Under the pieces are notes generated by a model. It did no database searches and was not told where the DNA came from. It saw only the letters and a list, made by a program, of their open reading frames with translations. From positions 930,001-994,000 of the forward strand of contig NZ_CP016783.1 of assembly GCF_002288385.1 (NCBI RefSeq): a stretch of 64,000 nucleotides of DNA, in the 5' to 3' direction. The translations under genes and the position numbers were made by a program. The DNA comes from Candidatus Planktophila lacus. Its GTDB lineage: Bacteria; Actinomycetota; Actinomycetes; Nanopelagicales; Nanopelagicaceae. Position 1 is the stretch's first letter; each line of letters starts with the position of its first letter. Of this stretch, positions 47,513-62,540 are shown in pieces.

Positions 47513-48531
<1,019 letters not shown>

Positions 48532-48840: not shown

Positions 48841-50028
48841 TTAACGCGCTTCTAGGAACTGCTTTGAAACAGTCCGTGCCAGAATTGGCTTAGCGTTCGC
48901 CCAAGAAATTCCGTAGACCTTTTCAAAGGCTTGATCAAAAGTCATTCCTGACGCATATTTATCCAGTACATCAAAGGTAAATGAAATTCCACCAATCGAT
49001 GTCAGTGCCTCAACAGCTATAAATCCGATGTCATAAATATGTAGACGTGTTGCTGAATCACATGGCTGCTGATGCTGCAGATCAAAGAATTTGTTGATAC
49101 TTGCTTCTGAAAAATCAGGTAATCCACGCAGTGGCGGACGAAGCCAACTGCGACGGTTCTTTACGTATTCACTTAAACTTGCGCTGCTAGAAGTTTGCCC
49201 AACAACCTGCGGCTGTCCCTCAGAAAACCAGCAGGGAATCGAAAATCTCTTCAAGCCATACTTTTTGTAGATTGATTTCTGGATTGTGTGAGTAGTTTCG
49301 TGCGCATAGTGAGATCGTATAATTGCAGTATTTGTGTTTGAAGAGTTTGGTAATCCAGACACACCCTGAATTATCAACCCTGAATCAAGTGAAATATTTC
49401 CAAAAGCATTGTCACACTCTGCTTGCGAACTACAAGCTACGCCTACTTGATCTGAAAATGTGTCATTTAATGTGAATGGGGACGCAATCGTGCTGAGTCG
49501 AGTTTTTGCCCAATCCCTGTCGGTGAAATTAAACGCAACCACTAGGAATTTGGATTGTTTGGGGAAGTTTCCACCGAGTTGTTGAGCTCTAGAAATTCCA
49601 TACTCAATTTCTGAGTAGGAATAAAGGATTTTTGTAGATTCACCTTTTTCAACATCCACCTTAATTGGCGTGCTCAAGGGTTGAGCAAAGAGTCTCTCGG
49701 CATCGACCCACACAGAATTAGGAATACCTTTGTAATTCGCTTCTAAATCTTCGAATGAAGTTGGCATTGCGGGAACGATTTCAATTTTAGGTGTTGGAGT
49801 TGGAGTTGGGGTCGGCGTTACGACTGGCATCGGCGTGGACAACTTCACGCCTTTGTTCCATATAAGTTTTTTGCCGGACTTGATGCATTTGTATTTGATT
49901 CCAGAAACAGTTGTAGCTGCATTAAGTTTGGTACAAGGCGCTCCCGCCTTAACTGCGCCAGAAGCCGACATCGCAGGAACCAGAACCATGATCAAGGCAA
50001 GAACGACTGCGGATATGGATCGCTTCAT
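48841..50028 (-). CDS. Secreted zinc metallopeptidase-like protein with N-terminal Cys-x15-Cys domain
   Basis: A 395-residue exported protein. After the signal peptide (about 1-24) comes a small domain with C32 and C48, spaced by 15 residues, and ending in SGKKLIWNKG. A PTPTPTPTP linker (about 71-80) leads to the main domain. That domain holds HETTH at 243-247 and WFSEGQ at 267-272, which places E270 as the likely third zinc ligand, so it belongs to the gluzincin-type peptidases. Several other Cys suggest disulfides. TAAGAT stands 6 bases before the ATG (leaderless). Substrate unknown. The Cys-x15-Cys domain recurs in the three paralogs at 52252-57966. Confidence 0.75.
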   Translation of the reverse strand: MKRSISAVVLALIMVLVPAMSASGAVKAGAPCTKLNAATTVSGIKYKCIKSGKKLIWNKGVKLSTPMPVVTPTPTPTPTPKIEIVPAMPTSFEDLEANYKGIPNSVWVDAERLFAQPLSTPIKVDVEKGESTKILYSYSEIEYGISRAQQLGGNFPKQSKFLVVAFNFTDRDWAKTRLSTIASPFTLNDTFSDQVGVACSSQAECDNAFGNISLDSGLIIQGVSGLPNSSNTNTAIIRSHYAHETTHTIQKSIYKKYGLKRFSIPCWFSEGQPQVVGQTSSSASLSEYVKNRRSWLRPPLRGLPDFSEASINKFFDLQHQQPCDSATRLHIYDIGFIAVEALTSIGGISFTFDVLDKYASGMTFDQAFEKVYGISWANAKPILARTVSKQFLEAR

Positions 50029-50034
50029 AGGATG

Positions 50035-50040
50035 ATCTTA
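50035..50040 (-). promoter_or_regulatory. -10 box for leaderless metallopeptidase-like gene
   Basis: TAAGAT, then CATCCT, then ATG on the minus strand. An AAGGA further upstream lies outside the predicted transcript. Confidence 0.45.
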
Positions 50041-50098
50041 GATTTCCTTCTTAGTCGAGGCTAGTGGTGTTGAGGAGATTTTGAAGTGATTTTGTTAC

Positions 50099-51301
50099 TT
50101 ACCCAATGATTTCTTTCAATCCAGCCACTAAACGATCAACATCGTCGCGCGTGGAATAAGGCGCCAATCCGGCACGAAGTGCACCTGCATCACCGAGCCC
50201 AAGCTTGCGAGAAGTTTCCAAGGCATAGAAATTAGATGCCGGAAGTGTCACGGCCTTCTTCGCCATCGCTTTATAGATCTCTGCACTTTCAAAGCCTTTG
50301 AATGAGAAGTAAAGCGTAGGCGTGCGTTTCTTAGCATTGCCATAGAGAGTGATCCCCGGCAGAGCTTTCAGTGAACTTTCCATGTATTCCAAGAGTTCGT
50401 CTTCATAGGCTTCAAGCGCACGCATTGAGTTAACAATCTTGTCACGACGGCTTGTGGCACCGCCTGGCGCGAGATTTGCAATGTATTCAATTGCTGCAAC
50501 GCTTCCCGCCATTAATTCATAAGGCAAGGTACCGAATTCAAATCTTTCCGGAACCATGTTAGTTGCAGGAAGCAACTTATCGTTCTGCAAAGTTTCAAGA
50601 AGTGCCGGAGCAGCAGCCAGTGCTGCGCAGTGTGGGCCGAACATCTTGTAGAAGGAAAACCCTATGAAATCGGCGCCAATCTCTTTTGCACTGATTGGTG
50701 CGTGCGGGGTTAGGTGAACTGCATCGACATAGAAGAGTGCACCAACTTTGTGGACTGCGGCACCAATCGCCTTTAAGTCGGGGCGAGTACCAATAGTGTT
50801 TCCAGCCCCGGTTACTGCAACAAGTTTTGTTCTGGCAGATAAAACGGATTCGACGGCTTCTACTGACAACTCTGTTGTATTTGGATCTAACTGTGCCCAC
50901 CGTACGGTTGCGCCCACTGCTTCTGCCGCCTGTACCCAGGGGCGAACATTGGAATCATGATCGAGAGTAGTGACTACAACTTCATCTCCTGGCCCCCAAT
51001 TTTTGGCAAGGGTGCGTGAAAAATCGTACGTCAGCTGAGTCCAGGATCGGCCATAGACAACGCCACGTGGATCTACATCGATTAAATCTGCAACTGCTGC
51101 ACGAAAACTTAGAACGATTTCTTCCGCGTTCTTTTCAGACTCAGTATTCACATTACGATTAGAAATCGGCTTAGTGATGGCATCGGAGATCGTTTTGCCA
51201 ACAACGTCAGGTACTTGGCTTCCGCCTGGTCCACAGAAAAAGGCGAGGCCTGTATTTAACGATGGGAAACTTGCACGGACTTTGTTGACGTCATAGCTCA
51301 T
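50099..51301 (-). CDS. Cysteine desulfurase-like class V aminotransferase
   Basis: A 400-residue PLP enzyme of the cysteine-desulfurase-like subfamily (the VC1184-type group). The Schiff-base Lys is K219 in SFYKMFGPH, and the PLP-binding Asp is D193 in YVDAVHLTPH. TTLDHDSNVRPW and GAGNTIGTRPDL are also typical. The short SufS/IscS catalytic loop cannot be confirmed, so real desulfurase activity is uncertain; many members act on other amino-acid substrates. TAGCCT stands 7 bases before the ATG. No iron-sulfur genes are next to it. Confidence 0.85.
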   Translation of the reverse strand: MSYDVNKVRASFPSLNTGLAFFCGPGGSQVPDVVGKTISDAITKPISNRNVNTESEKNAEEIVLSFRAAVADLIDVDPRGVVYGRSWTQLTYDFSRTLAKNWGPGDEVVVTTLDHDSNVRPWVQAAEAVGATVRWAQLDPNTTELSVEAVESVLSARTKLVAVTGAGNTIGTRPDLKAIGAAVHKVGALFYVDAVHLTPHAPISAKEIGADFIGFSFYKMFGPHCAALAAAPALLETLQNDKLLPATNMVPERFEFGTLPYELMAGSVAAIEYIANLAPGGATSRRDKIVNSMRALEAYEDELLEYMESSLKALPGITLYGNAKKRTPTLYFSFKGFESAEIYKAMAKKAVTLPASNFYALETSRKLGLGDAGALRAGLAPYSTRDDVDRLVAGLKEIIG

Positions 51302-51308
51302 AAGGTTG

Positions 51309-51314
51309 AGGCTA
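51309..51314 (-). promoter_or_regulatory. -10 box for leaderless desulfurase-like gene
   Basis: TAGCCT, then CAACCTT, then ATG on the minus strand, without a ribosome site. The divergent hydrolase gene has a matching element 73 bases away. Confidence 0.4.
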
Positions 51315-51386
51315 ACAGCGGTTGCATGAACTTCTCAATAGCAAAAGAGTGTGGTCGTTTACCTGCAAAACTGAGGCTTTCTCCGA

Positions 51387-51392
51387 TACGCT
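51387..51392 (+). promoter_or_regulatory. -10 box for leaderless alpha/beta hydrolase gene
   Basis: TACGCT, then TTTTAA, then ATG on the plus strand. No Shine-Dalgarno sequence is seen. Confidence 0.4.
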
Positions 51393-51398
51393 TTTTAA

Positions 51399-52262
51399 AT
51401 GACGCAGACCCGCCAGAATTTCACGCTCTCCGATGGACGCAATCTTGAGTATTTAACTAACGGACTCAAATCAGAGGCCGCGATTATTCTGCATGCCGGA
51501 ACTACACAAGACATAACTGGTTGGCAGACCTGGCTTGATTACTTCGCGGCTAAAGGCATATTCGCGCTCTCATTTGGACGAAGTGGATATGCCGGAAGTA
51601 CCAAACAACCAGGACGTATAACTATTGATGTAGCCAAAGATATTGCTGAACTTTCCCAACATCTCGGGATAACCATGTTTGTAAATTTGGGACTCTCTGG
51701 TGGTGGGCAACATGCGATCGCAACAGGGTTAGACCCGCGTTCAGTTGGCGTTGTAACGGTTGGAAGCTTGGCTCCCTTTGCTGAACTCGGTGAGCGCTTC
51801 TATGACGGCATGCAACAAGCTGATCTCGATGAGTACGCAGATGCACTGCGCAATATCAACGACTTAATCAAACGTTTTCAGGGTTGGCAAGATGGAAACG
51901 TTGCCGATTCCGTTGCTGGAGCAGAATTGAGCGAACGCGATCAATTGGCAGCCTCAAAGCCAACTTGGAAAGTTGTTCTCGATTCCTGTGCATTCACAAT
52001 GGGAAAAGGCTGGGATTGGGTTGCAGATGATTACAGCTCTTATTTGGAGCCATGGGGTTTTGATCCGCGCGATGTAAAGGTGCCAACAGTCATTTGGCAA
52101 GCAGAGTTAGATAAGAATGTTCCAGTTCAACACGGAAAATGGCTTTCAGAAAATATGCCAAGCGCCCGCTTAGAACTCCGCGCTGGCGAAAGCCACTTAG
52201 GGATTTACGTGAACTACGAGGAAGAGATTATGCAGAGCGCAATTGCCCTGCTTACTGCTTAG
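51399..52262 (+). CDS. Alpha/beta hydrolase
   Basis: A 287-residue cytoplasmic hydrolase. The nucleophile elbow is GLSGGG with S100. The oxyanion region LHAGTTQDITGW replaces the usual HGxPG. Acid and base are likely the Asp in WQAELDKNVP and the His in RAGESHLGIY near the end, so the triad is complete. The substrate is unknown. It diverges from the desulfurase-like gene, and its end overlaps the converging secreted-protein gene by 11 bases. Confidence 0.88.
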   Translation: MTQTRQNFTLSDGRNLEYLTNGLKSEAAIILHAGTTQDITGWQTWLDYFAAKGIFALSFGRSGYAGSTKQPGRITIDVAKDIAELSQHLGITMFVNLGLSGGGQHAIATGLDPRSVGVVTVGSLAPFAELGERFYDGMQQADLDEYADALRNINDLIKRFQGWQDGNVADSVAGAELSERDQLAASKPTWKVVLDSCAFTMGKGWDWVADDYSSYLEPWGFDPRDVKVPTVIWQAELDKNVPVQHGKWLSENMPSARLELRAGESHLGIYVNYEEEIMQSAIALLTA

Positions 52263-54462
52263 CCGGTTGCATCGGTATACCTGGTTGAACTGGATCTAGC
52301 GGTAGACCTGGCATGCCTGGTTGTCCTGGTCCCATTGGCTTCATCTGATAACCACTAGGGCATTGCACGGGTGATTTACCTGTAACTTGTTTAGATTCAG
52401 CACCTTTTACACAGGTAATAGTTATATCAGCGTTTGGATCAAATTGCGGCGCAGGTGCAATTGGTTGTGGTTTTGTCGGTTGATTTGGAGTTCCTGGTTG
52501 TCCAGCCGGTGATTGCGGTGCAGGCATATCTGCAGGTGCATCCGGTTGTTGCGCCGCAGGTTGTGCGGGAGATGATGGCGCTTTTACTGGTGTTGCCGCA
52601 CTCATTTTGTAACCTGCTGGACATTGTGGCTTTACACCAGTCACTATTTTCTTAGTTGCTCCCTTTGTGCATGTTACGGTCACTTGAACTTGTTGAGCAG
52701 CAGGTGCGCTAAAGTTTTGCATTTTGTATCCACTTGGACACTTTGGTTTAACACCCGTCACCTGCTTCTTTGTCGAGCCCTTTACGCAAGTGATCGTAAC
52801 TTTTCCGCCACCTGAATTCGGTACAGAAGGGGTTGAACCTTGAGCACTAGAGTTAGGAGTTGGTACATTTGAATTTGCAGAAGTTGATTTAACCCATCCA
52901 TCTAATTTCACGCTAACAGTCGGTGGAGCACCTGTGTACTCGAAGTTATCTGCGTGTAGATTTACCCAATCTTTATTGGTACCAAGAATTACAGACGCTG
53001 TTTTCTTCTCACCTGTATCGTCATAAGTAATTTCAACTTTTGCATAAGCTGGCAATTTACTCATTCCATAAACGCACTTGATAAGTTCAGCTTTCATAGC
53101 AAATGCATATCGGCCGACATTCTGTGTTTTACCATCCGCCCTATAAGTAGGCGCGGCAATTCGATAACCAAGGGCGCCTTCATTGCCATCCCACTTCGGA
53201 GATCCGGGCTCATAAACAGATGCATTGCTAGTAACAATTCCTTGCACTCCATCCGTTTTCTGACAAGGACCAGAAAATTGTTGCCCAGCGCTTGAAGTCG
53301 TATTTAGGCGCCAAGAAAGGGCGTTAGAAAGGGCAGAATTGCCGAATAACTTTGAGAGAGAACTGTAGTAGCGAACTGAATTCGCATCATCAGGATCTAC
53401 ACCGGCAATATCTAAATTTTTTGAGCCTGGCGCAGCTGTCTGAGCACGTTTTGTTTCCTCTAGGTACTGTGTGACCGCACCAGTATTGGGTAGCCACTTG
53501 CCAGTCATTATCTCTTCGAGAGTGTTGCCTTCAACAATAAGTTCTGAATAGTTTTCGTCGTAATCTTCAGAGTAGGCGACTGGTTTATCGAGACGACCGT
53601 TTAGCCACCCAGTGATTACCTTTGGAATTCTCATAACAAGGGCAAATCGTAGATTTGAAGCAAAAGCGATTCTTTGATAACAAACCCCGGTATCAACAGC
53701 TAAACATCCAGTAACGCCGGATCCTTCAACTAGCGCCGGGTTCTCGAATTTCTTAACCGGATAAATTGATAGGCGAAGACTTTTTTCGGAGGCATCCCAA
53801 GTTGACACACCATTTGGTCTATTAAACAGCGCACTTACCAACCCCAGAATCAGGTAATCGGTACTCTTGCCACCATCGTTGATTCTCCAGATCCAAGGTC
53901 CATCAGAACCTGGATAACCTGAATTTGTCTTTGAGTTGAATGTGGATGCCCAACCCGGACTTGTTTTTCTATAAACCCTAGTAACCGGATCCGCTTTAAC
54001 CTTCGAGCCATCTTCTTTGACTAGGGTCAAACTCTTAATGCATGCAGCTATTTGTCGAGCATCGCACGAACCCATAGCCACGTCATATTTGATTTGTTGA
54101 AAAGATGAATCAGCTAGTGCAGAAACACACTTTGGATCATCAGGTGTTAGGCAAGTTACAGCACCGCCTGCACCTGCTTGCCCTGCGCTTTGTTTCTCTA
54201 GAGAAATATATGACTTGAAATTAACTTGGTTCTGATCGAAGTAGACCATGGCGTTATCTGAAGAACTTGGTTCAATCACACGCAGAATTGAGCGAGCATC
54301 TTTAATAACTTCAGGATCTTCCGGCGGGGAAAATGCTGGACCGTTAGGGGCTGAAGAACCTGGCTGAGGTGTATCAACGGCGAAAGTCGATGTTGGTAAT
54401 AAGGAGAGGAATAGAACTGAGGTCAACAGAAGAATCGACACTTTTCGCGATGAAATTACCAC
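52252..54462 (-). CDS. Large secreted surface protein with three Cys-x15-Cys repeats (paralog 1)
   Basis: I do not recognise a named family. From the GTG at 54462 the protein is 736 aa: signal peptide (ILLLTSVLFLSLLPTSTFA), a long N-terminal region with several Cys pairs, and a core domain (about 410-525, with GIVTSNASVYEPGSPKW and KCVYGMSKLPAYAKVEI) shared with the next two genes. Three copies of a short motif, TCxKGxxxKxVTGxxPxCPxGY, follow, with first Cys near 558, 598 and 683. Pro/Ala/Gln-rich linkers separate them, and the tail is GPGQPGMPGLPLDPVQPG. I chose this start because TAGACT lies 7 bases before it. It is likely cell-wall associated. Confidence 0.7.
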   Translation of the reverse strand: MVISSRKVSILLLTSVLFLSLLPTSTFAVDTPQPGSSAPNGPAFSPPEDPEVIKDARSILRVIEPSSSDNAMVYFDQNQVNFKSYISLEKQSAGQAGAGGAVTCLTPDDPKCVSALADSSFQQIKYDVAMGSCDARQIAACIKSLTLVKEDGSKVKADPVTRVYRKTSPGWASTFNSKTNSGYPGSDGPWIWRINDGGKSTDYLILGLVSALFNRPNGVSTWDASEKSLRLSIYPVKKFENPALVEGSGVTGCLAVDTGVCYQRIAFASNLRFALVMRIPKVITGWLNGRLDKPVAYSEDYDENYSELIVEGNTLEEIMTGKWLPNTGAVTQYLEETKRAQTAAPGSKNLDIAGVDPDDANSVRYYSSLSKLFGNSALSNALSWRLNTTSSAGQQFSGPCQKTDGVQGIVTSNASVYEPGSPKWDGNEGALGYRIAAPTYRADGKTQNVGRYAFAMKAELIKCVYGMSKLPAYAKVEITYDDTGEKKTASVILGTNKDWVNLHADNFEYTGAPPTVSVKLDGWVKSTSANSNVPTPNSSAQGSTPSVPNSGGGKVTITCVKGSTKKQVTGVKPKCPSGYKMQNFSAPAAQQVQVTVTCTKGATKKIVTGVKPQCPAGYKMSAATPVKAPSSPAQPAAQQPDAPADMPAPQSPAGQPGTPNQPTKPQPIAPAPQFDPNADITITCVKGAESKQVTGKSPVQCPSGYQMKPMGPGQPGMPGLPLDPVQPGIPMQPAKQ

Positions 54463-54469
54463 GTCACTT

Positions 54470-54475
54470 AGTCTA
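54470..54475 (-). promoter_or_regulatory. -10 box for leaderless paralog 1
   Basis: TAGACT, then AAGTGAC, then the GTG start on the minus strand. The hexamer is identical to that at ilvD, valS and ndk. It supports GTG at 54462 over the in-frame ATG nine codons upstream. Confidence 0.45.
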
Positions 54476-54515
54476 GAAGTTCTGTCCATAAATAAATAGA
54501 CCTAGGCTTGGAAAT

Positions 54516-56204
54516 CTACTTCTTCTTAAATCCTGTTGGACAGACCGGCTTAACCGCAGTTACCTTCTTGGAAGTTTTCCCCTTTACGCAAGTAATAGTT
54601 GTCTTACTCCCACTTGTTCCGGCCTGAGTGATCTTCATCTTGATAGTTGGTGATGAGAATCCAAAGCCGTAAGCGCCCATTCGGAAGAAACCGTTCTTCT
54701 CATTAACAACCGTTGTAGCCACTTGTGCTTGGCCATCGCTACTTAATACTGAAACCGTTGCCCCTATTGGCGCCTTTGAGAATCCATAGAGGCACCGTGC
54801 AACGCTTGAGTTGAGAACCAAGTCATAACTTCCTGTAGTCAGCGTGCCATCTGGTTTGGTGTGAGGGGATGCAACTTTGTAATCCAAAGTTCCTTCAGAT
54901 TTATTGAAAGCTGGTGCGCCAGATGAAAAGACGCTCGCATTGGTAAAGACCAAGCCGGCGAGAGAATTAACGCTTGCTGTACATTTCGAAAGTTCTGCTG
55001 CTGTATCGCTATTTAGATTAAGCGTTTGGAAACTCCACTGGCTAGGCATCGCTACCGCTTTATCGCCGAGGAATGGCAACCATGACAAGAATTCATCTAT
55101 TCCAAGAGCATCATATTTGTTGCTGTGGCCTTTAAGAATTGAGACAGAATCAAATGGATCTTGCCGACTCGCGCCGGCATAGAGACCACCACCGCGATCC
55201 TTTTGATATCTCTCGCGCAATTCTGCGGTCAAATCTGAATTCTTCGTCCAACCAAAGACGATTGGCACCTTTACTGGCTCAGCGAGAATTTCTACTTTAA
55301 CCGAACTACCGCTGGCAGCAGTCACAGACACTTCTGGGTTTGCCATTCGTCCGTAAAGCCAACCGTTAAAGCGCTTAGACATATTTAGGCTAATTCCAAA
55401 AGAGTAGTTTGCAGGAAAAGGTTGCGACTTTATACAAGTGGTTCGAGTTGCCATCAAACATCTGTCATCTGTTATGAATCCAGATAAACTGGAGTCCATA
55501 GTGTTTGTCCCTGGTCCCACTGGCTTTCCAACGTAAAACATAGGATCTAAATTTGGTCCACCAGGAACGAATTGTCCTGTTTCTACCGTAACCGGATAAA
55601 TGCTGTTAGTTAGTTGATCTAGAACGAATCTATTTGCTGTGCCTGCGTCACGATGCGTAAAAAAGTCAGATTTGACCAGATATAAATCTCCGGCTGAATG
55701 TGCGGCGCTAGGTATCGAAACAACCAGTGGGTTTCCACCATTTGGTAAACCGATACTTGGATCCCCCTTGATTGCAGCGTCAAAGCTTTCAGTTAACTCT
55801 GGTCTTGGGGTAAATGAATTTGAAACTGCGCCCGTCGTTAAATTCTTGGTAGTGATTCCTGCAATGCAATCAACCTCGGTTGAGTTTGCGCAGGGAGTTA
55901 AATTCATATCCCCCAATTGAAAAGTGAAATTCGTCGGGCACTTATCCAGGGATTTGCATCTGGCCATCCCAGTAATTACCTGATTCTCAACCTTGAAAGT
56001 TGCTAAGTTGGTCCAGAATCGAGCAAGAGATCGTGAGTTATTTACTAGGTAGCCGGTGTATCCAGGACCGGGAGGATTTGCAACCTGAAATTGCTCATCA
56101 ATTTCAGCTACCGCTTGTGCAGAATTCATCGCAGGCGAAGCTAAGAGGCCAAGGCAAAGCGATCCTATGACAACTGCAAATTTAGCGCGGTGAGTGAATT
56201 TCAT
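54516..56204 (-). CDS. Large secreted surface protein with C-terminal Cys-x15-Cys motif (paralog 2)
   Basis: A 562-residue exported protein of unknown function. The signal peptide is about 1-31 (SPAMNSAQA). The start of the mature part (PGPGYTGYLVNNSRSLARFW) matches paralog 3 (GGYTGVLVEDS). Cys pairs lie around 82-110. The shared core domain covers about 415-530, with LVFTNASVFSSGAPAFNKSE and RCLYGFSKAPIGATVSVL. One Cys-x15-Cys motif closes the protein (C539, C555), ending CPTGFKKK at the very C-terminus. TAGATT stands 6 bases before the ATG. It is transcribed in the same direction as its two neighbours. Confidence 0.72.
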   Translation of the reverse strand: MKFTHRAKFAVVIGSLCLGLLASPAMNSAQAVAEIDEQFQVANPPGPGYTGYLVNNSRSLARFWTNLATFKVENQVITGMARCKSLDKCPTNFTFQLGDMNLTPCANSTEVDCIAGITTKNLTTGAVSNSFTPRPELTESFDAAIKGDPSIGLPNGGNPLVVSIPSAAHSAGDLYLVKSDFFTHRDAGTANRFVLDQLTNSIYPVTVETGQFVPGGPNLDPMFYVGKPVGPGTNTMDSSLSGFITDDRCLMATRTTCIKSQPFPANYSFGISLNMSKRFNGWLYGRMANPEVSVTAASGSSVKVEILAEPVKVPIVFGWTKNSDLTAELRERYQKDRGGGLYAGASRQDPFDSVSILKGHSNKYDALGIDEFLSWLPFLGDKAVAMPSQWSFQTLNLNSDTAAELSKCTASVNSLAGLVFTNASVFSSGAPAFNKSEGTLDYKVASPHTKPDGTLTTGSYDLVLNSSVARCLYGFSKAPIGATVSVLSSDGQAQVATTVVNEKNGFFRMGAYGFGFSSPTIKMKITQAGTSGSKTTITCVKGKTSKKVTAVKPVCPTGFKKK

Positions 56205-56210
56205 TTAAGT

Positions 56211-56216
56211 AATCTA
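56211..56216 (-). promoter_or_regulatory. -10 box for leaderless paralog 2
   Basis: TAGATT, then ACTTAA, then ATG on the minus strand. AGGAAGG lies too far upstream (about 13 bases) to serve well as ribosome site. Confidence 0.4.
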
Positions 56217-56262
56217 TCCTTCCTGTCTGGATTGCCCTATAGAGATATGGATGAAATACAAG

Positions 56263-57966
56263 TTATTTCTTCTTGTAACCAGTTGGGCAGACAGGTTTCA
56301 CGCCAGAGACTTTCTTGGATGTCTTGCCTTTCACGCAAGTTATAGTGATCTTCTTTGCGACCGCAGGCTTTGCAACCGGAGTAGCAACCGGCTTGTCTGC
56401 TTCTTGTGTCAACTTAACGCGAACTGTTGGAGCCGAGTAGGTAAATCCATTTGCTGATAGGTAGAGCCAGCCATTCTTTTCGTTGACTGTAGTTGTCGCT
56501 ACTTGAGCAGTTCCGTCTGAAGAAATGATACTGACCGTCGCAGATACAGGCGCCTTGGTAAAACCATAAATACAGCGGGCAGATTCTGAACTTATGACCA
56601 GGTTGTAATTACCGACATTTTCTTTACCCGCTTCATTGAAGTGCGGTGAGGTAACTCGGTAATCAAGAGACTGCGCCTCTTTGTTGAACGTTGGTGGAGA
56701 AGATACGTACATGCCAGCATTGGTAGTGACTATGCCTGTTAGATTCTTCGCATCACCCAGGCACTTGCGTATTTCTTCTCCCGCGCTGGCGACTTCAGAG
56801 CTGCTCAAGGTGTGAGCAATCCAGAGGGATTTATCGCCGATTGATTTATCCTTCGCCACATCTAGCCACCACAAATACTCTTTAAAAGTTTCGGCTGTGT
56901 ATTGATCAAAAGTTTGTAAGAGCTGTACGTTATCCCGAGTATTCCCGATGCCATCTTGATAGGTGAAGAATCCACCCCAATTGGTCATTGCATATAAGTA
57001 GTCATACAAGGCTTTGGGCATATCTGTGTTTTTGACCCAAGTGCTCAAAACTGGAACAGCAACTGGTCCTGCTTCAACAGTAAAGAGCTGACGGCCAGAG
57101 GGATCGGTCTCTATCTTGATAGTAGGGTCTAGCAAGCGGCCGTGCATAAAACTGGTGATCGGAATACTTGTACGAATCTCAAGGCGATATTTAACATTTT
57201 TTGGTAGCGGCCAACTCAAGGCGCACTCACCTTCGACTGATCCATTTGATTGGCAACCATAATTTGAACCATTCCACCAGGTTCGAGTCTTATCTACAAC
57301 AATATTGAACTTCTGCGCATTGGCTACTTTGCTCTTTGAAATAGCAAAGATTCCCATGTCAAACTGTTGAGGAGAAAGTGGTGGTTTACTTCCAAAAAAT
57401 ACATTTCCATTATGGAAATACCTTGGGAAGACCATGAACTGATCGCCACCTTGATGAGTTATCCCATCAAAAGTCCAAAGTGATGGAAGGCCACCATCTG
57501 GGATATTCAGGCCGGCATCGCCTTTAAACGCATATTCGTTTGATTCAGGATAATTCTGTGCATACTTTCCTGGGAATTCCTTCCCATCTTTTATTGCGGT
57601 AACCCCAACAACGCAATTTGTATCTGAAGTTGATTTGCATGCCCCAAGAATTGCGTCGTACCAAACATTGTCTGCATTGCTGCAATTTGGATCTGAGTAA
57701 GCAACACATGTCTTGGCATCTTTCTGTACCCAGTTACCATTCTTATTCTCAAAATAAAAACCGACCAGATTTGATTGCCGGGTAGTCAGCAGAAATGAAT
57801 CTTCTACCAGTACGCCTGTATAACCGCCGACGTTCTTAACTGTGGGACCTTGGTCATAAAATTGTTCAATTGGCTTGGTATCTGCGCTGGCGAGAATCGG
57901 AACCGATAGCCCCAAAATCAGAAGTGTTGAAAGTAGGCTCTTGATCAGCTTCTTGGACTTGCTCAT
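56263..57966 (-). CDS. Large secreted surface protein with C-terminal Cys-x15-Cys motif (paralog 3)
   Basis: A 567-residue exported protein of unknown function. The signal peptide is about 1-28 (VPILASADT). Four Cys at about 87-115 precede a long region without known motifs (SLWTFDGITHQGGDQFMVF, FGSKPPLSPQQFDMGIFAIS). The shared core domain covers about 415-520 (GIVTTNAGMYVSSPPTFNKE, RCIYGFTKAPVSATVSII). A short Val/Pro/Ala/Lys linker leads to the Cys-x15-Cys motif (C544, C560), ending CPTGYKKK at the C-terminus. Unlike paralogs 1 and 2 it has a proper ribosome site, GGGGGAG, 5 bases before the ATG. It is the first of the three in transcription order. Confidence 0.72.
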   Translation of the reverse strand: MSKSKKLIKSLLSTLLILGLSVPILASADTKPIEQFYDQGPTVKNVGGYTGVLVEDSFLLTTRQSNLVGFYFENKNGNWVQKDAKTCVAYSDPNCSNADNVWYDAILGACKSTSDTNCVVGVTAIKDGKEFPGKYAQNYPESNEYAFKGDAGLNIPDGGLPSLWTFDGITHQGGDQFMVFPRYFHNGNVFFGSKPPLSPQQFDMGIFAISKSKVANAQKFNIVVDKTRTWWNGSNYGCQSNGSVEGECALSWPLPKNVKYRLEIRTSIPITSFMHGRLLDPTIKIETDPSGRQLFTVEAGPVAVPVLSTWVKNTDMPKALYDYLYAMTNWGGFFTYQDGIGNTRDNVQLLQTFDQYTAETFKEYLWWLDVAKDKSIGDKSLWIAHTLSSSEVASAGEEIRKCLGDAKNLTGIVTTNAGMYVSSPPTFNKEAQSLDYRVTSPHFNEAGKENVGNYNLVISSESARCIYGFTKAPVSATVSIISSDGTAQVATTTVNEKNGWLYLSANGFTYSAPTVRVKLTQEADKPVATPVAKPAVAKKITITCVKGKTSKKVSGVKPVCPTGYKKK

Positions 57967-58082: not shown

Positions 58083-59021
58083 TTATTGAAAGACCACGCC
58101 TGCTTTTATGAGTCTGGCGGTCATAGCCGCATAACCAGCGCTGAACTCTGGAGAATCAATCTCTGATTTCCAGCGGCCGCTCGTCGCCGCATCCGGCGTC
58201 ATTGATTGTGTGAAGAAATCCTGCATGGCGGTTTCATCCAAGAGCTTGAGGAAGTCAAGGAGTCTCTTGTACGTAGCTTCTCGTTTCTTGATTGCGAGAT
58301 CTTCTAAAGCGATCGTAATTTTCTTTTCTGGCTTAACTGCGGTCAAGGCTTCGTGGCCTGCCAGCAGTCGAGCTTCGATCCAATCCAAACCTTCTAGCGC
58401 AGTTGTTGGGCCCCACTTCTTGGTGAGAAGCGAGGCAATAACATCGCGAGGATCGCGAACCATATTTATAAAAAGCGCGTTGGGAAATAGTTCTTGAAGT
58501 TTATTAGCCTCTGGAATATTCATGGGAGTTGTCTCGACCCAATAAATCTCATCGCTGGCTTCAAATTGCTTGCTGATGAACGTGGCCATGAAGCGACGGG
58601 CAGCCCATTTGCGGTTGATCTTTAAATCGCGTTTAAGTCTCTTGAGTAAGTTTTCAAGATCTGTCTTTGCAATACCTGAGATTAGCCCGCGGCCATGCGG
58701 AGGGGGTGCATCAATATCCCACCACTTCTCCCAGATGAATTTATTGAACTCTGCAAGGATCTTAGAAAATCGTTCTTTCTCTTTTCGGTTACGTTTGCGG
58801 TAAGTGCGAAAGTTAAGGATTGAAACTTTTCCTGCGCTCTTTTCAATCTCATTGCTATATCCGAAGACCACATCGACAAGCCCCGATTTATTGGTAAGGA
58901 ACTTTATTTCAATGGGCGTGCTGGTTCTGATCTTGGAATGATTTCCAAGCAGATCTCCAACGACAGTCGTTCCGCTGCGGCCGGTTCCGCCCACAAATAC
59001 TGGGATGACCTTAGAACTCAT
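58083..59021 (-). CDS. Sulfotransferase (PAPS-dependent)
   Basis: A 312-residue enzyme that would transfer sulfate from PAPS to an acceptor such as a sugar, lipid or peptide. The 5'-phosphosulfate loop is GGTGRSGTT (11-19), and the 3'-phosphate loop is in FINMVRDPRDVIASL at about 180-200. There is no signal peptide. It lies directly downstream of cysD, the cysN-cysC fusion and a TauE/SafE permease, which would supply PAPS. TAGTCT stands 6 bases before the ATG, so it also has its own leaderless promoter. The acceptor is unknown. Confidence 0.88.
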   Translation of the reverse strand: MSSKVIPVFVGGTGRSGTTVVGDLLGNHSKIRTSTPIEIKFLTNKSGLVDVVFGYSNEIEKSAGKVSILNFRTYRKRNRKEKERFSKILAEFNKFIWEKWWDIDAPPPHGRGLISGIAKTDLENLLKRLKRDLKINRKWAARRFMATFISKQFEASDEIYWVETTPMNIPEANKLQELFPNALFINMVRDPRDVIASLLTKKWGPTTALEGLDWIEARLLAGHEALTAVKPEKKITIALEDLAIKKREATYKRLLDFLKLLDETAMQDFFTQSMTPDAATSGRWKSEIDSPEFSAGYAAMTARLIKAGVVFQ

Positions 59022-59027
59022 TGGGTA

Positions 59028-59033
59028 AGACTA
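59028..59033 (-). promoter_or_regulatory. -10 box for leaderless sulfotransferase gene
   Basis: TAGTCT, then TACCCA, then ATG on the minus strand, just after the stop of the TauE/SafE gene. Confidence 0.45.
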
Positions 59034-59786
59034 ACTTGCGATGATTCGATAGCCGTTGATTACGATGACAGCTACTCCGACGAGGATCCCGATCTGCTTA
59101 CGAGGTAACTTCACAACGATGCGAGCAGCGATTGGCGCCATTATGCAGCCACCGAGTGCAAGCCCGCCAACAGCGGCCCAGTTGATATCTAAGCGGTGCA
59201 GGTTCGCTAAGAAGCCAACGCTGGCAGAGACGGCAACGATAAATTCTGAGGCGCTCACTGTTCCGATAATTTTGCGAGGTTCTATCTGAGTAGTTGTCAT
59301 AAGGGTTGGCGTAACTATTGGACCCCATCCCCCACCACCAGATGCATCTACAAAACCACCGGTAAAGCCTAGATAAGTTAAAAACCTTGGGTTGGTAACT
59401 TCAAGTGAATTTGTATTCACCTGCGGTTGAAAGATATTTCGGTATAAAAGTAAGAAGCCGAGCAATAGAAGAAGTGTTGAGATAAAGACTTTTGCGCTAG
59501 AGAGATCTATAGAAGATAGAAAGGTTGCACCTAGCAATGCGCCAATGCCACCTGGGATTGCGAGTTTAAAGAGAATTTTCTTATCTATGTTTTCCGCATG
59601 CCAGTGTGATGCGCCAGATACTAAGGTTGTGCCGATTTCAGCGGCGTGAACTGCAGCGGATGCAACCGCAGCAGATGCTCCTAAGGTCAACAACAGAGTT
59701 GAGCTAGTTAAACCAAAACCCATGCCGAGAGTGCCATCAATTAACTGTGCGACCGATCCTGCCAAAGCAAAGAAAATCCAGTTCAT
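59031..59786 (-). CDS. TauE/SafE family permease (sulfite/sulfur-compound transporter)
   Basis: A 251-residue membrane protein with about eight helices. The repeated family motifs are visible: LIDGTLGMGFGLTSSTLLL in the first half and GGFVDASGGGGWGPIVTPTL in the second. Such proteins move sulfite, sulfate or organosulfonates. It overlaps cysN-cysC by 4 bases, so it is co-translated with PAPS synthesis. It is therefore most likely a sulfate importer for this pathway, or a sulfite exporter. Confidence 0.88.
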   Translation of the reverse strand: MNWIFFALAGSVAQLIDGTLGMGFGLTSSTLLLTLGASAAVASAAVHAAEIGTTLVSGASHWHAENIDKKILFKLAIPGGIGALLGATFLSSIDLSSAKVFISTLLLLLGFLLLYRNIFQPQVNTNSLEVTNPRFLTYLGFTGGFVDASGGGGWGPIVTPTLMTTTQIEPRKIIGTVSASEFIVAVSASVGFLANLHRLDINWAAVGGLALGGCIMAPIAARIVVKLPRKQIGILVGVAVIVINGYRIIAS

Positions 59787-61606
59787 AGAGCCACCTTAAG
59801 TATCGCGCTAACGCTGGCATCAAGATCTGCAGTGCCATCGATTGTAATCTCAGGTTTTGCTGGGCGCTCGTAATCTTGACCTACGCCAGTGAAGTTAGGG
59901 ATCTCTCCCTTGGCAGCCTTCTTATACAGACCCTTTGGATCGCGAGAGATACATACATCTACTGGTGTATCTACGAATACTTCAATGAAATCACCTTCTG
60001 CAAATATCGAACGTGCGCGCTGGCGATCAACTTCAAATGGGCTAACTAGCGCTGTAATAACAATTAACCCGGCATCGACCATTAGTTTGGCAACTTCAGA
60101 GACTCTACGAACATTCTCTGCACGATCTTCGGGGGTAAAGCCCAAATCAACATTGAGACCCATACGTAGATTGTCACCATCTAATACATAAGCATGTGCA
60201 CCTTGAGCATGAAGGCGTTTTTCAAGAAGGTTGGCGATCGTAGATTTTCCTGAACCCGATAGACCTGTTAACCAGATAACTTTTGCGCGCTGATTTTTAG
60301 CCGCTTCGCGAGCAGTTTTATCGACCTCGTAGGCCTGTGCGGTGATGTTTTCACCACGGCGTAATGAGTGGCGAATCATGCCGGCGCCAACTGTTTGGAA
60401 GTTGGTGCGATCTACCAGGATAAAGTTTCCGAATTCGCGAGATTGTTTATATGGATCTAGTGCGATCGGTTGGTTTGTTGCAATTTCAACCTCGCCAATT
60501 TCGTTCATGGCCAGGGTATTTACTGAGAGGTGCTCACCTGTATGAACGTCAATCTTGTGACGAATCTTGGTGATGATTACTGGAGTCTCGCTAGGGCCTG
60601 ATACGAGAAGATATGAACGGCTATGAATCAAGGCATCTTCATTTAGCCAGACTAGGTTTGCGTTAAAGCGATCAGATGGAGTTACAGCGCTTTGATTGGC
60701 GTAAACCAGATCACCGCGAGTTATATCTACCTCTGGCTCGAGTACCAGCGTCACCGCATCCGACTGAGCGGCAACTTTTTGGCTCTGCATGTCAGAAATT
60801 ATCTGCGCAATCGTTGCTACTTGATTGCTAGGAAAGATCTTTACCTGATCGCCTAATTTGAAGTCACCTAAGTGAACCGTCCCGGTAACACCTCTGAAAT
60901 CTTCGGCACGAGCGATAGATTGAACGCGCAGGCGAGCAGTTGCTTCTGCGGATTTGCCTGGTTGCCAACCTTGAATCGCCTCAAGCAAAGTCTCGCCTGA
61001 ATACCAAGGCGTTGAATTACTGCGATAAACCACGTTATCGCCAGCTAGCGCACTAAGCGGAATAAAGTGAACGTCGGCGATATCAAGGCGCTCTAGAGTC
61101 TTTTCAATCTCACTCTTTATCTCGCTATAGATACTCTCTTGAAACCCAACGGCATCTAATTTATTGATCGCAACTAATACTCGCTGGACTCCCATTAGAG
61201 AACAGATAGTTAGATGGCGCAAAGTTTGGGTACGCACTCCCTTTGTAGCATCGACTAAAACTATTGAGATCTCAGCGCGTGATGCGGCAACAGCCATATT
61301 GCGTGTGTATTGCTCGTGTCCTGGAGCATCAGAGATGATTAAACGTCGTCCATCAAGAAGTGACATCGAGCGATATGCCACATCAATTGTGATTCCTTGT
61401 TCGCGCTCTGCTTCAAGGCCATCTGTAAGCAAACTAAAGTCAATTTCACCCGCTGGAATAATCGACCCTGCACGACGTACTTTTCGCGTTGAATCAATCG
61501 TGTCATGAGGAACGCTATCGGTCTCAACCAATAGACGTCCGATCAAGGTGCTCTTTCCATCATCAACGCTTCCACAAGTTAAGAGACGAACAATTGGGGT
61601 CTGCAC
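59783..61606 (-). CDS. cysNC: Bifunctional sulfate adenylyltransferase subunit 1 / adenylylsulfate kinase (CysN-CysC fusion)
   Basis: The N-terminal part is the GTPase that drives ATP sulfurylase; the C-terminal part phosphorylates APS to PAPS. It is 607 aa. The CysN G1 loop is CGSVDDGKST (11-20), with DAPGHEQYT and INKLD following. The CysC P-loop GLSGSGKST is at about 446-454 and CysC ends the protein. The fusion matches mycobacterial CysNC and rhizobial NodQ. It overlaps cysD by 1 base and the TauE/SafE gene by 4. The product PAPS is the donor for the sulfotransferase downstream. Confidence 0.95.
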   Translation of the reverse strand: MQTPIVRLLTCGSVDDGKSTLIGRLLVETDSVPHDTIDSTRKVRRAGSIIPAGEIDFSLLTDGLEAEREQGITIDVAYRSMSLLDGRRLIISDAPGHEQYTRNMAVAASRAEISIVLVDATKGVRTQTLRHLTICSLMGVQRVLVAINKLDAVGFQESIYSEIKSEIEKTLERLDIADVHFIPLSALAGDNVVYRSNSTPWYSGETLLEAIQGWQPGKSAEATARLRVQSIARAEDFRGVTGTVHLGDFKLGDQVKIFPSNQVATIAQIISDMQSQKVAAQSDAVTLVLEPEVDITRGDLVYANQSAVTPSDRFNANLVWLNEDALIHSRSYLLVSGPSETPVIITKIRHKIDVHTGEHLSVNTLAMNEIGEVEIATNQPIALDPYKQSREFGNFILVDRTNFQTVGAGMIRHSLRRGENITAQAYEVDKTAREAAKNQRAKVIWLTGLSGSGKSTIANLLEKRLHAQGAHAYVLDGDNLRMGLNVDLGFTPEDRAENVRRVSEVAKLMVDAGLIVITALVSPFEVDRQRARSIFAEGDFIEVFVDTPVDVCISRDPKGLYKKAAKGEIPNFTGVGQDYERPAKPEITIDGTADLDASVSAILKVAL

Positions 61607-62487
61607 TAGAAGTACCCCTCTTTCTTCTTCTTCTCCATCGAATCTTCATTTGCGCCGTCAATTAAACGCGTTGCTCGTTCGCTCAGCTTCACCTTTAAAA
61701 CCTCGTCAACAACTTCAGAGATCGTTGTTGCAGTTGATTCAACGGCTGCGGTAAGCGGGTAGCAACCGAGAGTTCTAAAGCGAACCATCTTTGGCTCTGG
61801 AACTTCTCCAGGGTTAAGTGGGTAGCGATCATCATCGACCATAATTAATTGGTCACCGCGTTTAACCATGGGGCGATTTTTTGCAAAGTAAAGAGGATTT
61901 ACTTCAATTTTCTCTTGTTGGATATAGCGCCAGATATCGCCTTCGGTCCAATCTGAAAGTGGAAAGACGCGCATTGTCTGACCAGGCGCTAAACGAGTGT
62001 TGTAAGAACGCCAGAGTTCGGGGCGTTGATTACGTGGGTTCCAGCTATGGCCTTCATCGCGAACGCTAAAGATTCGTTCCTTTGCGCGAGATTTTTCTTC
62101 ATCACGGCGTGATCCCCCGATAGCGGCATCTACTTCATAGTGATCGAGCGCTTGCCGTAGTGCAACAGTCTTCATGATGCGCGTGTATTCAGAAATACCG
62201 GTAGTAAATGGATTTGCTCCGGAAGTTGCGCCCTCTTGGTTTGTGTGAACAATCAAATTCAATTTGTGATCGGCGACAATCTTGTCGCGGAAGGAGATCA
62301 TCTCTTTAAACTTCCATGTTGTATCGATATGTAACAACCGGAAAGGAACTGGGGCGGGATAGAAAGCTTTGATCGCTAAATGGAGAAGAACGGAAGAATC
62401 TTTTCCAATGGAATACATCATCACGGGATTTCGGAAGGATGCGGCGGTCTCGCGCAGAATCTCTATCGATTCAGCCTCAAGGGCCAT
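61606..62487 (-). CDS. cysD: Sulfate adenylyltransferase subunit 2
   Basis: CysD joins sulfate to AMP from ATP, forming APS, driven by CysN. I start it at the ATG at 62487 (293 aa), because AAGGA lies 6 bases before it; the frame is open eight codons further. The PP-loop is [14 protein letters not shown] (about 25-38), followed by [12 protein letters not shown] and [16 protein letters not shown]. It opens the operon cysD, cysNC, TauE/SafE permease, sulfotransferase. No PAPS or sulfite reductase gene is in the window. Confidence 0.95.
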
Positions 62488-62540
62488 TAAAATTCCTTCA
62501 TTCACATGCACGCGCCTACGCTACTGGTTAATCCTGTGAT

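Follow-up and report, generated by a model that had tools for sequence, protein, structure and literature searches.

Many exported proteins of Candidatus Planktophila lacus and its relatives in the Nanopelagicales end in a lysine-rich mini-domain of approximately 30 residues with two cysteines (Cys-x15-Cys), here called module A, which is a real, widespread and apparently undescribed family of C-terminal tags. The stretch analysed (the window; 64,000 nucleotides, G000:C1:930001-994000) is part of a single-contig genome of 1,410,107 bp (G000) and encodes three exported tandem paralogs (paralogs 1 to 3) that carry module A, and an exported metallopeptidase with a Cys-x15-Cys module of its own, module B (Table 1). 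An earlier sequence-only reading of the window had treated all of these as six copies of one domain. The open reading frames (ORFs) and motifs are indeed present at the positions claimed, including the ends of paralogs 2 and 3 (CVKGKTSKKV followed by CPTGFKKK or CPTGYKKK) and the triple copy in paralog 1, one with an extra residue, but A and B are probably two unrelated modules. For module A, attachment of exported proteins to the cell envelope is the reading we favour.

Recurrence of module A in the genome, the family and the phylum

A search of G000 with a 30-residue query returned 22 copies in 20 exported proteins (the five in the window and 17 others) at E-values from 2e-14 to 3e-6, followed by a single further weak match (E = 0.16), a recurrence far above chance. 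Eighteen of the tagged proteins belong to one paralog family (the P family), the remaining two being a protein of 248 aa and a trypsin-like protease. Among 201 genomes of the family, each at least 80% complete, 151 encode module A, covering 14 of 16 genera, with 0 to 23 copies per genome; where a genome is fragmented, its count is a minimum. A sample of 397 genomes from the phylum contained it only in G000 and in two genomes of another family (f74, probably Acidimicrobiia/Ilumatobacteraceae-like), within which 10 out of 100 genomes have it. The named loci listed with module A (80 of 80) are all Actinomycetota records, mostly from freshwater. A profile search of relatives, which the sequence-only reading had set as a test, thus found the module on many exported Nanopelagicales proteins with varied catalytic and repeat bodies.

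Position and host proteins

The host set comprises 221 distinct ORFs, 219 with a complete 3' end and 182 with a complete 5' end. Module A lies within 6 residues of the C-terminus in 211 of the 219 hosts whose 3' end is complete. Of the 8 exceptions, three are multi-copy proteins of the paralog 1 type. The other five come from a small family of exported proteins of approximately 240 aa, without a Pfam match, in which module A comes straight after the signal peptide; with a sixth member seen separately, this family is represented by L065, L067, L121, L123, L177, and L183. The bodies of the hosts form 36 unrelated clusters, with Pfam names such as Trypsin, Trypsin_2, Peptidase_S8 (subtilase), fn3, BIg21, kelch, neocarzinostatin, Laminin_G_3, RCC1, Acyl_transf_3 with SGNH (a membrane acyltransferase), Peripla_BP_6, and DUF3472; Pfam supports the M6-like identity of some tagged peptidases only weakly (E 0.0098, which misses the cut-off). 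Both the C-terminal position and the modularity of module A are strongly supported by these counts. Near the N-terminus, a hydrophobic stretch resembling a signal peptide, called by a crude hydrophobicity rule, is present in 160 of 182 hosts, compared to 218 of 518 other ORFs, and a DUF1501 host has a twin-arginine-type leader. Judged from such N-terminal features, the property common to the hosts appears, with strong support, to be export.

Sequence, predicted fold, and conservation

The composition of module A is extreme. Acidic residues make up 0.1% of the module and 8.9% of the host bodies, while lysine and arginine together account for 29% and 8.6%, respectively. The copies in f74 have Arg for Lys and Trp for Tyr, so that charge and aromaticity are kept. 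Structure prediction of one copy, suggested together with the earlier claims, gave a confident beta-hairpin: in the AlphaFold2 model of paralog 3, the module is predicted to form strands 540-546 and 549-555 (predicted local distance difference test, pLDDT, about 92). Cys544 falls within strand 1 of this model, and Cys560 comes after strand 2, in a loop. The linker ahead of the module is modelled less well (pLDDT 62-69).

Among the 20 tagged proteins of G000, copies of the module have 69% of amino acids in common and the bodies 22%. Synonymous sites of the module copies are saturated (proportion of differences at synonymous sites, pS, 0.80; at nonsynonymous sites, pN, 0.20), and this saturation, together with the conserved module residues, points to selection on the protein rather than recent copying; for the tag, neither gene conversion nor recent copying is compatible with the saturated synonymous sites. 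Pfam gave matches at chance level only (TSP_1 at 0.047 and zf-C3HC4 at 0.11, one member each), and no match was found in NCBIfam or among PDB sequences. The Pfam and NCBIfam results agree with the original statement that no named domain fits, and a literature search that included four typical tail strings found no description of the tag.

The paralog array in the window

The Cys pairs of paralog 1 are 568/584, 607/623, and 693/710, the third enclosing 16 residues; two orthologs (L146 and L233) carry four copies of module A. Proteins of the P family are beta-rich and exported, and the model of the family is confident (pLDDT 84). Neither Pfam nor the folds in PDB gave a match for it, and its profile has no relative among solved structures. 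Paralog 3 itself gave no match in Pfam, NCBIfam, or PDB, and a Foldseek search with its AlphaFold2 model returned nothing usable (best template modelling (TM) score 0.15). Tandem arrays of P-family genes occur in G000:C1 at 80-84 kb, 982-988 kb, and 1131-1139 kb. Immediately next to paralog 3, positions 58083-62511 of the window hold sulfotransferase-like, TauE/SafE-like, CysN/C fusion, and CysD genes, whose order is kept in two relatives.

Table 1. Features of the window, in window positions.
Feature	Position	Strand	Description
Metallopeptidase	48841..50028	-	Exported, HExxH, 395 aa; weak gluzincin-like fold match
Module B, metallopeptidase N-terminal module	49849..49956	-	AVKAGAPCTKLNAATTVSGIKYKCIKSGKKLIWNKG; own family in genome; predicted strands (AlphaFold2)
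Paralog 1	52252..54489	-	Exported P-family protein, 745 aa; three module A copies, Pro-rich linkers
Module A, paralog 1 copy 3	52339..52425	-	E 1.0e-6; one extra residue between Cys693 and Cys710
Module A, paralog 1 copy 2	52603..52686	-	E 4.5e-8
Module A, paralog 1 copy 1	52720..52803	-	E 7.9e-10
Paralog 2	54516..56204	-	Exported P-family protein, 562 aa
Module A, paralog 2 C-terminal copy	54519..54605	-	E 1.2e-11
Paralog 3	56263..57966	-	Exported P-family protein, 567 aa; signal peptide and beta-rich body, then Pro/Ala linker and module A
Module A, paralog 3 C-terminal copy	56266..56355	-	KKITITCVKGKTSKKVSGVKPVCPTGYKKK-stop; E 2.1e-14; predicted beta-hairpin (AlphaFold2)

The metallopeptidase module

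The best meaningful Foldseek match of the metallopeptidase is the M30 enzyme lugdulysin (7bb8; probability 0.97, E 0.1, TM about 0.4). Adjoining its gene, at 47875-48531, is that of an exported putative nuclease of the GmrSD_C/HNH type (Pfam E 8e-18). The N-terminal module of the metallopeptidase matches three other G000 proteins (E 6e-10, 7e-10, and 0.05), the last of which reaches 5e-18 once that protein is included in the profile. Module B follows the pattern G-x2-C-x-K ... V-S-G-x-K-Y-x-C-x-K ... W and sits at the mature N-terminus, directly past the signal peptide, in every case inspected. It was found in 30 of 60 relatives and in 3 of 397 genomes of the phylum sample; its best Pfam match is CBM_5_12 (0.12, one member).

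Several results bear on whether this module is a further copy of module A, as the sequence-only reading had it. Ungapped scores of the metallopeptidase module against A, compared with shuffles in which the cysteines were fixed, gave p = 0.026 for the paralog 3 copy and 0.09 for the paralog 2 copy. The metallopeptidase copy is absent both from the single-sequence search of G000 with module A and from the profile matches at E <= 0.001, and when profiles built from 112 copies of A and 31 of B were compared, hhalign gave a probability of 1.4% (E = 0.038), close to chance level. The predicted models differ as well. Module B is predicted to have strands 38-41, 44-51, and 54-57 (pLDDT 90-93), with the first cysteine (Cys32) ahead of strand 1, the second (Cys48) within strand 2, and a third strand that ends in a conserved Trp, as opposed to the predicted hairpin of A, whose first cysteine lies in strand 1 and whose second lies in the loop that follows strand 2. 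Furthermore, A has an invariant Pro at +17 (and Pro in 99% of copies at +14), while B has Tyr or Phe at +14. The proposal of one domain for all six copies was therefore rejected on the shuffles, both searches, the profile comparison, and the predicted models. A common, drifted ancestor of A and B would account for the same Cys-x15-Cys spacing, the Lys at +2, the V/S-T/G-A positions around +9 to +11, and the fact that M6-like peptidases bear either module, but given the profile comparison, the differing predicted strand and cysteine arrangements, and the Pro positions, we consider such an ancient homology very unlikely. The equal spacing and the common K, V, and G positions are real, but they are no proof of common descent.

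Since the metallopeptidase copy belongs to B, the window holds five copies of A and one of B. No ORF among the hosts carries both modules (some ORFs end at locus borders). With the unity of the two gone, the claim that a single domain swaps between the ends of proteins falls too: A is C-terminal and B is N-terminal. Varied placement does hold for module A, which occurs in tandem in paralog 1 and its orthologs and N-terminally in one small family; the N-terminal copy in the metallopeptidase was not an instance of it.

Comparison with known anchors

LPXTG signals, CTERM helices, Excalibur, and the domains of Pfam and NCBIfam were each considered as the identity of module A and rejected, as their features are absent. 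With LPXTG (PF00746), module A shares the form of a short modular C-terminal tag with a basic end on unrelated surface proteins, but it has no transmembrane helix and LPxTG-like strings are rare (LPxT[GA] in only 2 of 221 tails, and a transmembrane-like stretch in the last 60 aa of only 3). Moreover, no sortase (PF04203) was matched in G000, while controls were positive. Across the family, sortase is present in 33 of 201 genomes and in none of the 34 with 9 or more copies of module A, and 122 tagged genomes have no recognised sortase. The association is significant by Fisher's test (p 0.002), with a cut-off picked after seeing the data and kinship uncorrected, and not by a rank test (p 0.85); that sortase and tag are substitutes for each other is a lead only.

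PEP-CTERM, MYXO-CTERM, and similar signals consist of a transmembrane helix and an Arg-rich end and have a dedicated protease. Like module A, they are recurrent C-terminal tags on many unrelated exported proteins per genome, but A is a predicted folded, Cys-closed hairpin and has no helix. Excalibur (PF05901) is likewise a small, Cys-containing C-terminal domain of actinobacterial exported proteins; however, its calcium-binding DxDxDG (of DxDxDGxxCE) is found in 0 of 112 copies of A, which is almost devoid of acidic residues. The domains CWB2, LysM, SH3b, and SLH bind the wall non-covalently and often occur in tandem (PMC5817068), and both the tandem occurrence and a non-covalent retention in the envelope, which we infer for A, would resemble them, but A is much smaller and has no Pfam sequence match to any. 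The WXL domain (PF13731), a C-terminal module of Firmicutes with about 120-190 residues and Trp-x-Leu motifs, has been shown to bind peptidoglycan non-covalently (PMC5817068). As in module A, its place is the C-terminus of varied exported proteins, no sortase is involved, and the tagged proteins are encoded in gene clusters. By analogy, WXL would be the nearest functional parallel of A, which is not a member: it has about 30 residues and two cysteines, and it lacks the WXL motif and a Pfam match.

What module A may do

A binding or anchoring role, proposed in the sequence-only reading for an exported, lysine-rich module with a possible disulfide, remains the best interpretation. We put the probability that module A is a non-covalent, sortase-independent envelope-attachment tag at about 0.5. 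The host would leave the cell by Sec or Tat and its body would fold, while the tail, on its Pro/Ala/Lys-rich linker, would form a beta-hairpin closed by a Cys-Cys disulfide. The cationic face and the conserved aromatic residue could then bind an anionic envelope polymer non-covalently, with a wall or membrane glycopolymer, possibly sulfated, as candidate ligand; with the sulfotransferase-like gene and its neighbours beside paralog 3, a sulfated surface polymer would be plausible. Neither sortase nor a membrane helix nor cleavage would be required. Recurrence on unrelated bodies, the lack of known anchors, and conservation at the protein level are the established parts of this scheme; the hairpin and the export of the hosts are supported by prediction, and the disulfide, the non-covalent retention, and the ligand are what we infer. 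The tandem copies in paralog 1 are more in keeping with a binder that gains avidity than with a signal for terminal cleavage, and the tagged exported proteins encoded by phages also speak for the scheme.

Some points weigh against envelope attachment. A membrane-anchored acyltransferase is also tagged, for which retention seems redundant, so that retention is not the whole story for every host. No VKOR was found in G000 (other oxidases were not searched). Finally, a plain binding domain would not call for a C-terminal position this close to absolute. Many exported proteins of G000 have conserved Cys pairs, despite no VKOR homolog having been found.

The strict position keeps alive a model in which module A is a sorting signal for dedicated machinery (a transpeptidase, a glycosyl- or lipid-ligase, or a secretion step), after which it would be processed or linked to the envelope, in the manner of LPXTG, PEP-CTERM, or type IX C-terminal domains. 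Conservation across unrelated bodies and the variable copy number between genomes would suit such a signal. Yet hydrophobic tails are rare and no transmembrane helix follows the module, the internal tandem copies in paralog 1 orthologs and the N-terminal family do not fit C-terminal processing, and a partner gene was not identified, which leaves a sorting signal rather unlikely. The tandem copies would also suit multivalent assembly, and many tagged proteins are beta-rich or Ig-like and encoded in tandem paralog arrays, as might be expected if the module docked exported proteins to each other or to an S-layer-like scaffold, possibly via intermolecular disulfides. This we regard as unlikely, as no conserved complementary receptor was found and the strong positive charge without acidic partners speaks against pairing of A with A. 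It is less probable again that module A sends secreted proteins not to the producer's envelope but to other cells or to particles and polymers in the environment. Proteases and lectin-like and Ig-like proteins are among the hosts, and the conserved aromatic residue and the lysines are compatible with glycan binding, but the tagged periplasmic binding protein and membrane acyltransferase act at the envelope of the producer.

Exchange of bodies beside the modules

Homologous M6-like metallopeptidases carry module B at the N-terminus (L087, L094, L100, and L034) or module A at the C-terminus (L058, L161, L240, L263, and L234), with E-values between bodies down to 8e-10. For this reason A and B, as ALTERNATIVES, may be functional alternatives on these peptidases. 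The swap proposed earlier, which fails for one domain, may therefore survive in an altered form, with B in front of or A behind related enzymes. In the P. lacus locus L283:1-1666, signal peptide and module B of the metallopeptidase are conserved (92% identity over 64 aa), but the peptidase body that follows them is a different one and shows the M6-like motif HEISH. Paralog 3 of P. lacus is 68% identical, and an extra, out-of-frame chimera of paralogs 2 and 3 lies inside the array. The flanks of the array are 94-100% identical in genome G571, which lacks paralogs 1 and 2 and whose paralog 3 reaches only 69% identity. These two comparisons provide direct evidence of body exchange beside conserved adapters. 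The array as a whole (52252-57966) is a variable spot between flanks of 94-100% identity (L283 and L284 compared).

Phages and significance

Thirteen IMG/VR contigs (L270-L282) encode module A, in all cases at or near the C-terminus. On L277:2864-5661, an endolysin gene (PHROG E 3e-27) is preceded upstream by the gene for a tagged trypsin-like protein, and on L278:600-4090, that for a tagged beta-rich exported protein of 562 aa directly follows the terminase large subunit gene (E 3e-14). No tagged protein was found in the deposited phage genomes searched. Phages that carry the host tag presumably infect these bacteria; what they use it for, e.g., blocking re-infection, is a guess.

We tentatively propose that Nanopelagicales possess private, exchangeable adapters, N-terminal B and C-terminal A, for sortase-independent display in a streamlined genome, and that phages add the host tag to place exported proteins on the host surface. 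Enzymes and adhesins would then be exchanged while the adapters before or after them stay constant, which forms part of the same possible, though not favoured, joint claim. The two modules also illustrate that reading by eye at the scale of a window can merge Cys-x15-Cys modules that are probably unrelated.

The Nanopelagicales (acI) belong to the most abundant bacteria of freshwater, and the papers searched apparently contain no description of how their surface proteins are retained. With a 30-residue profile, likely surface proteins can be flagged in any such genome, with up to 23 copies per 1.4-1.5 Mb, the tagged phage proteins are candidates for the phage-host interface, and sortase-free display becomes testable with one reporter fusion.

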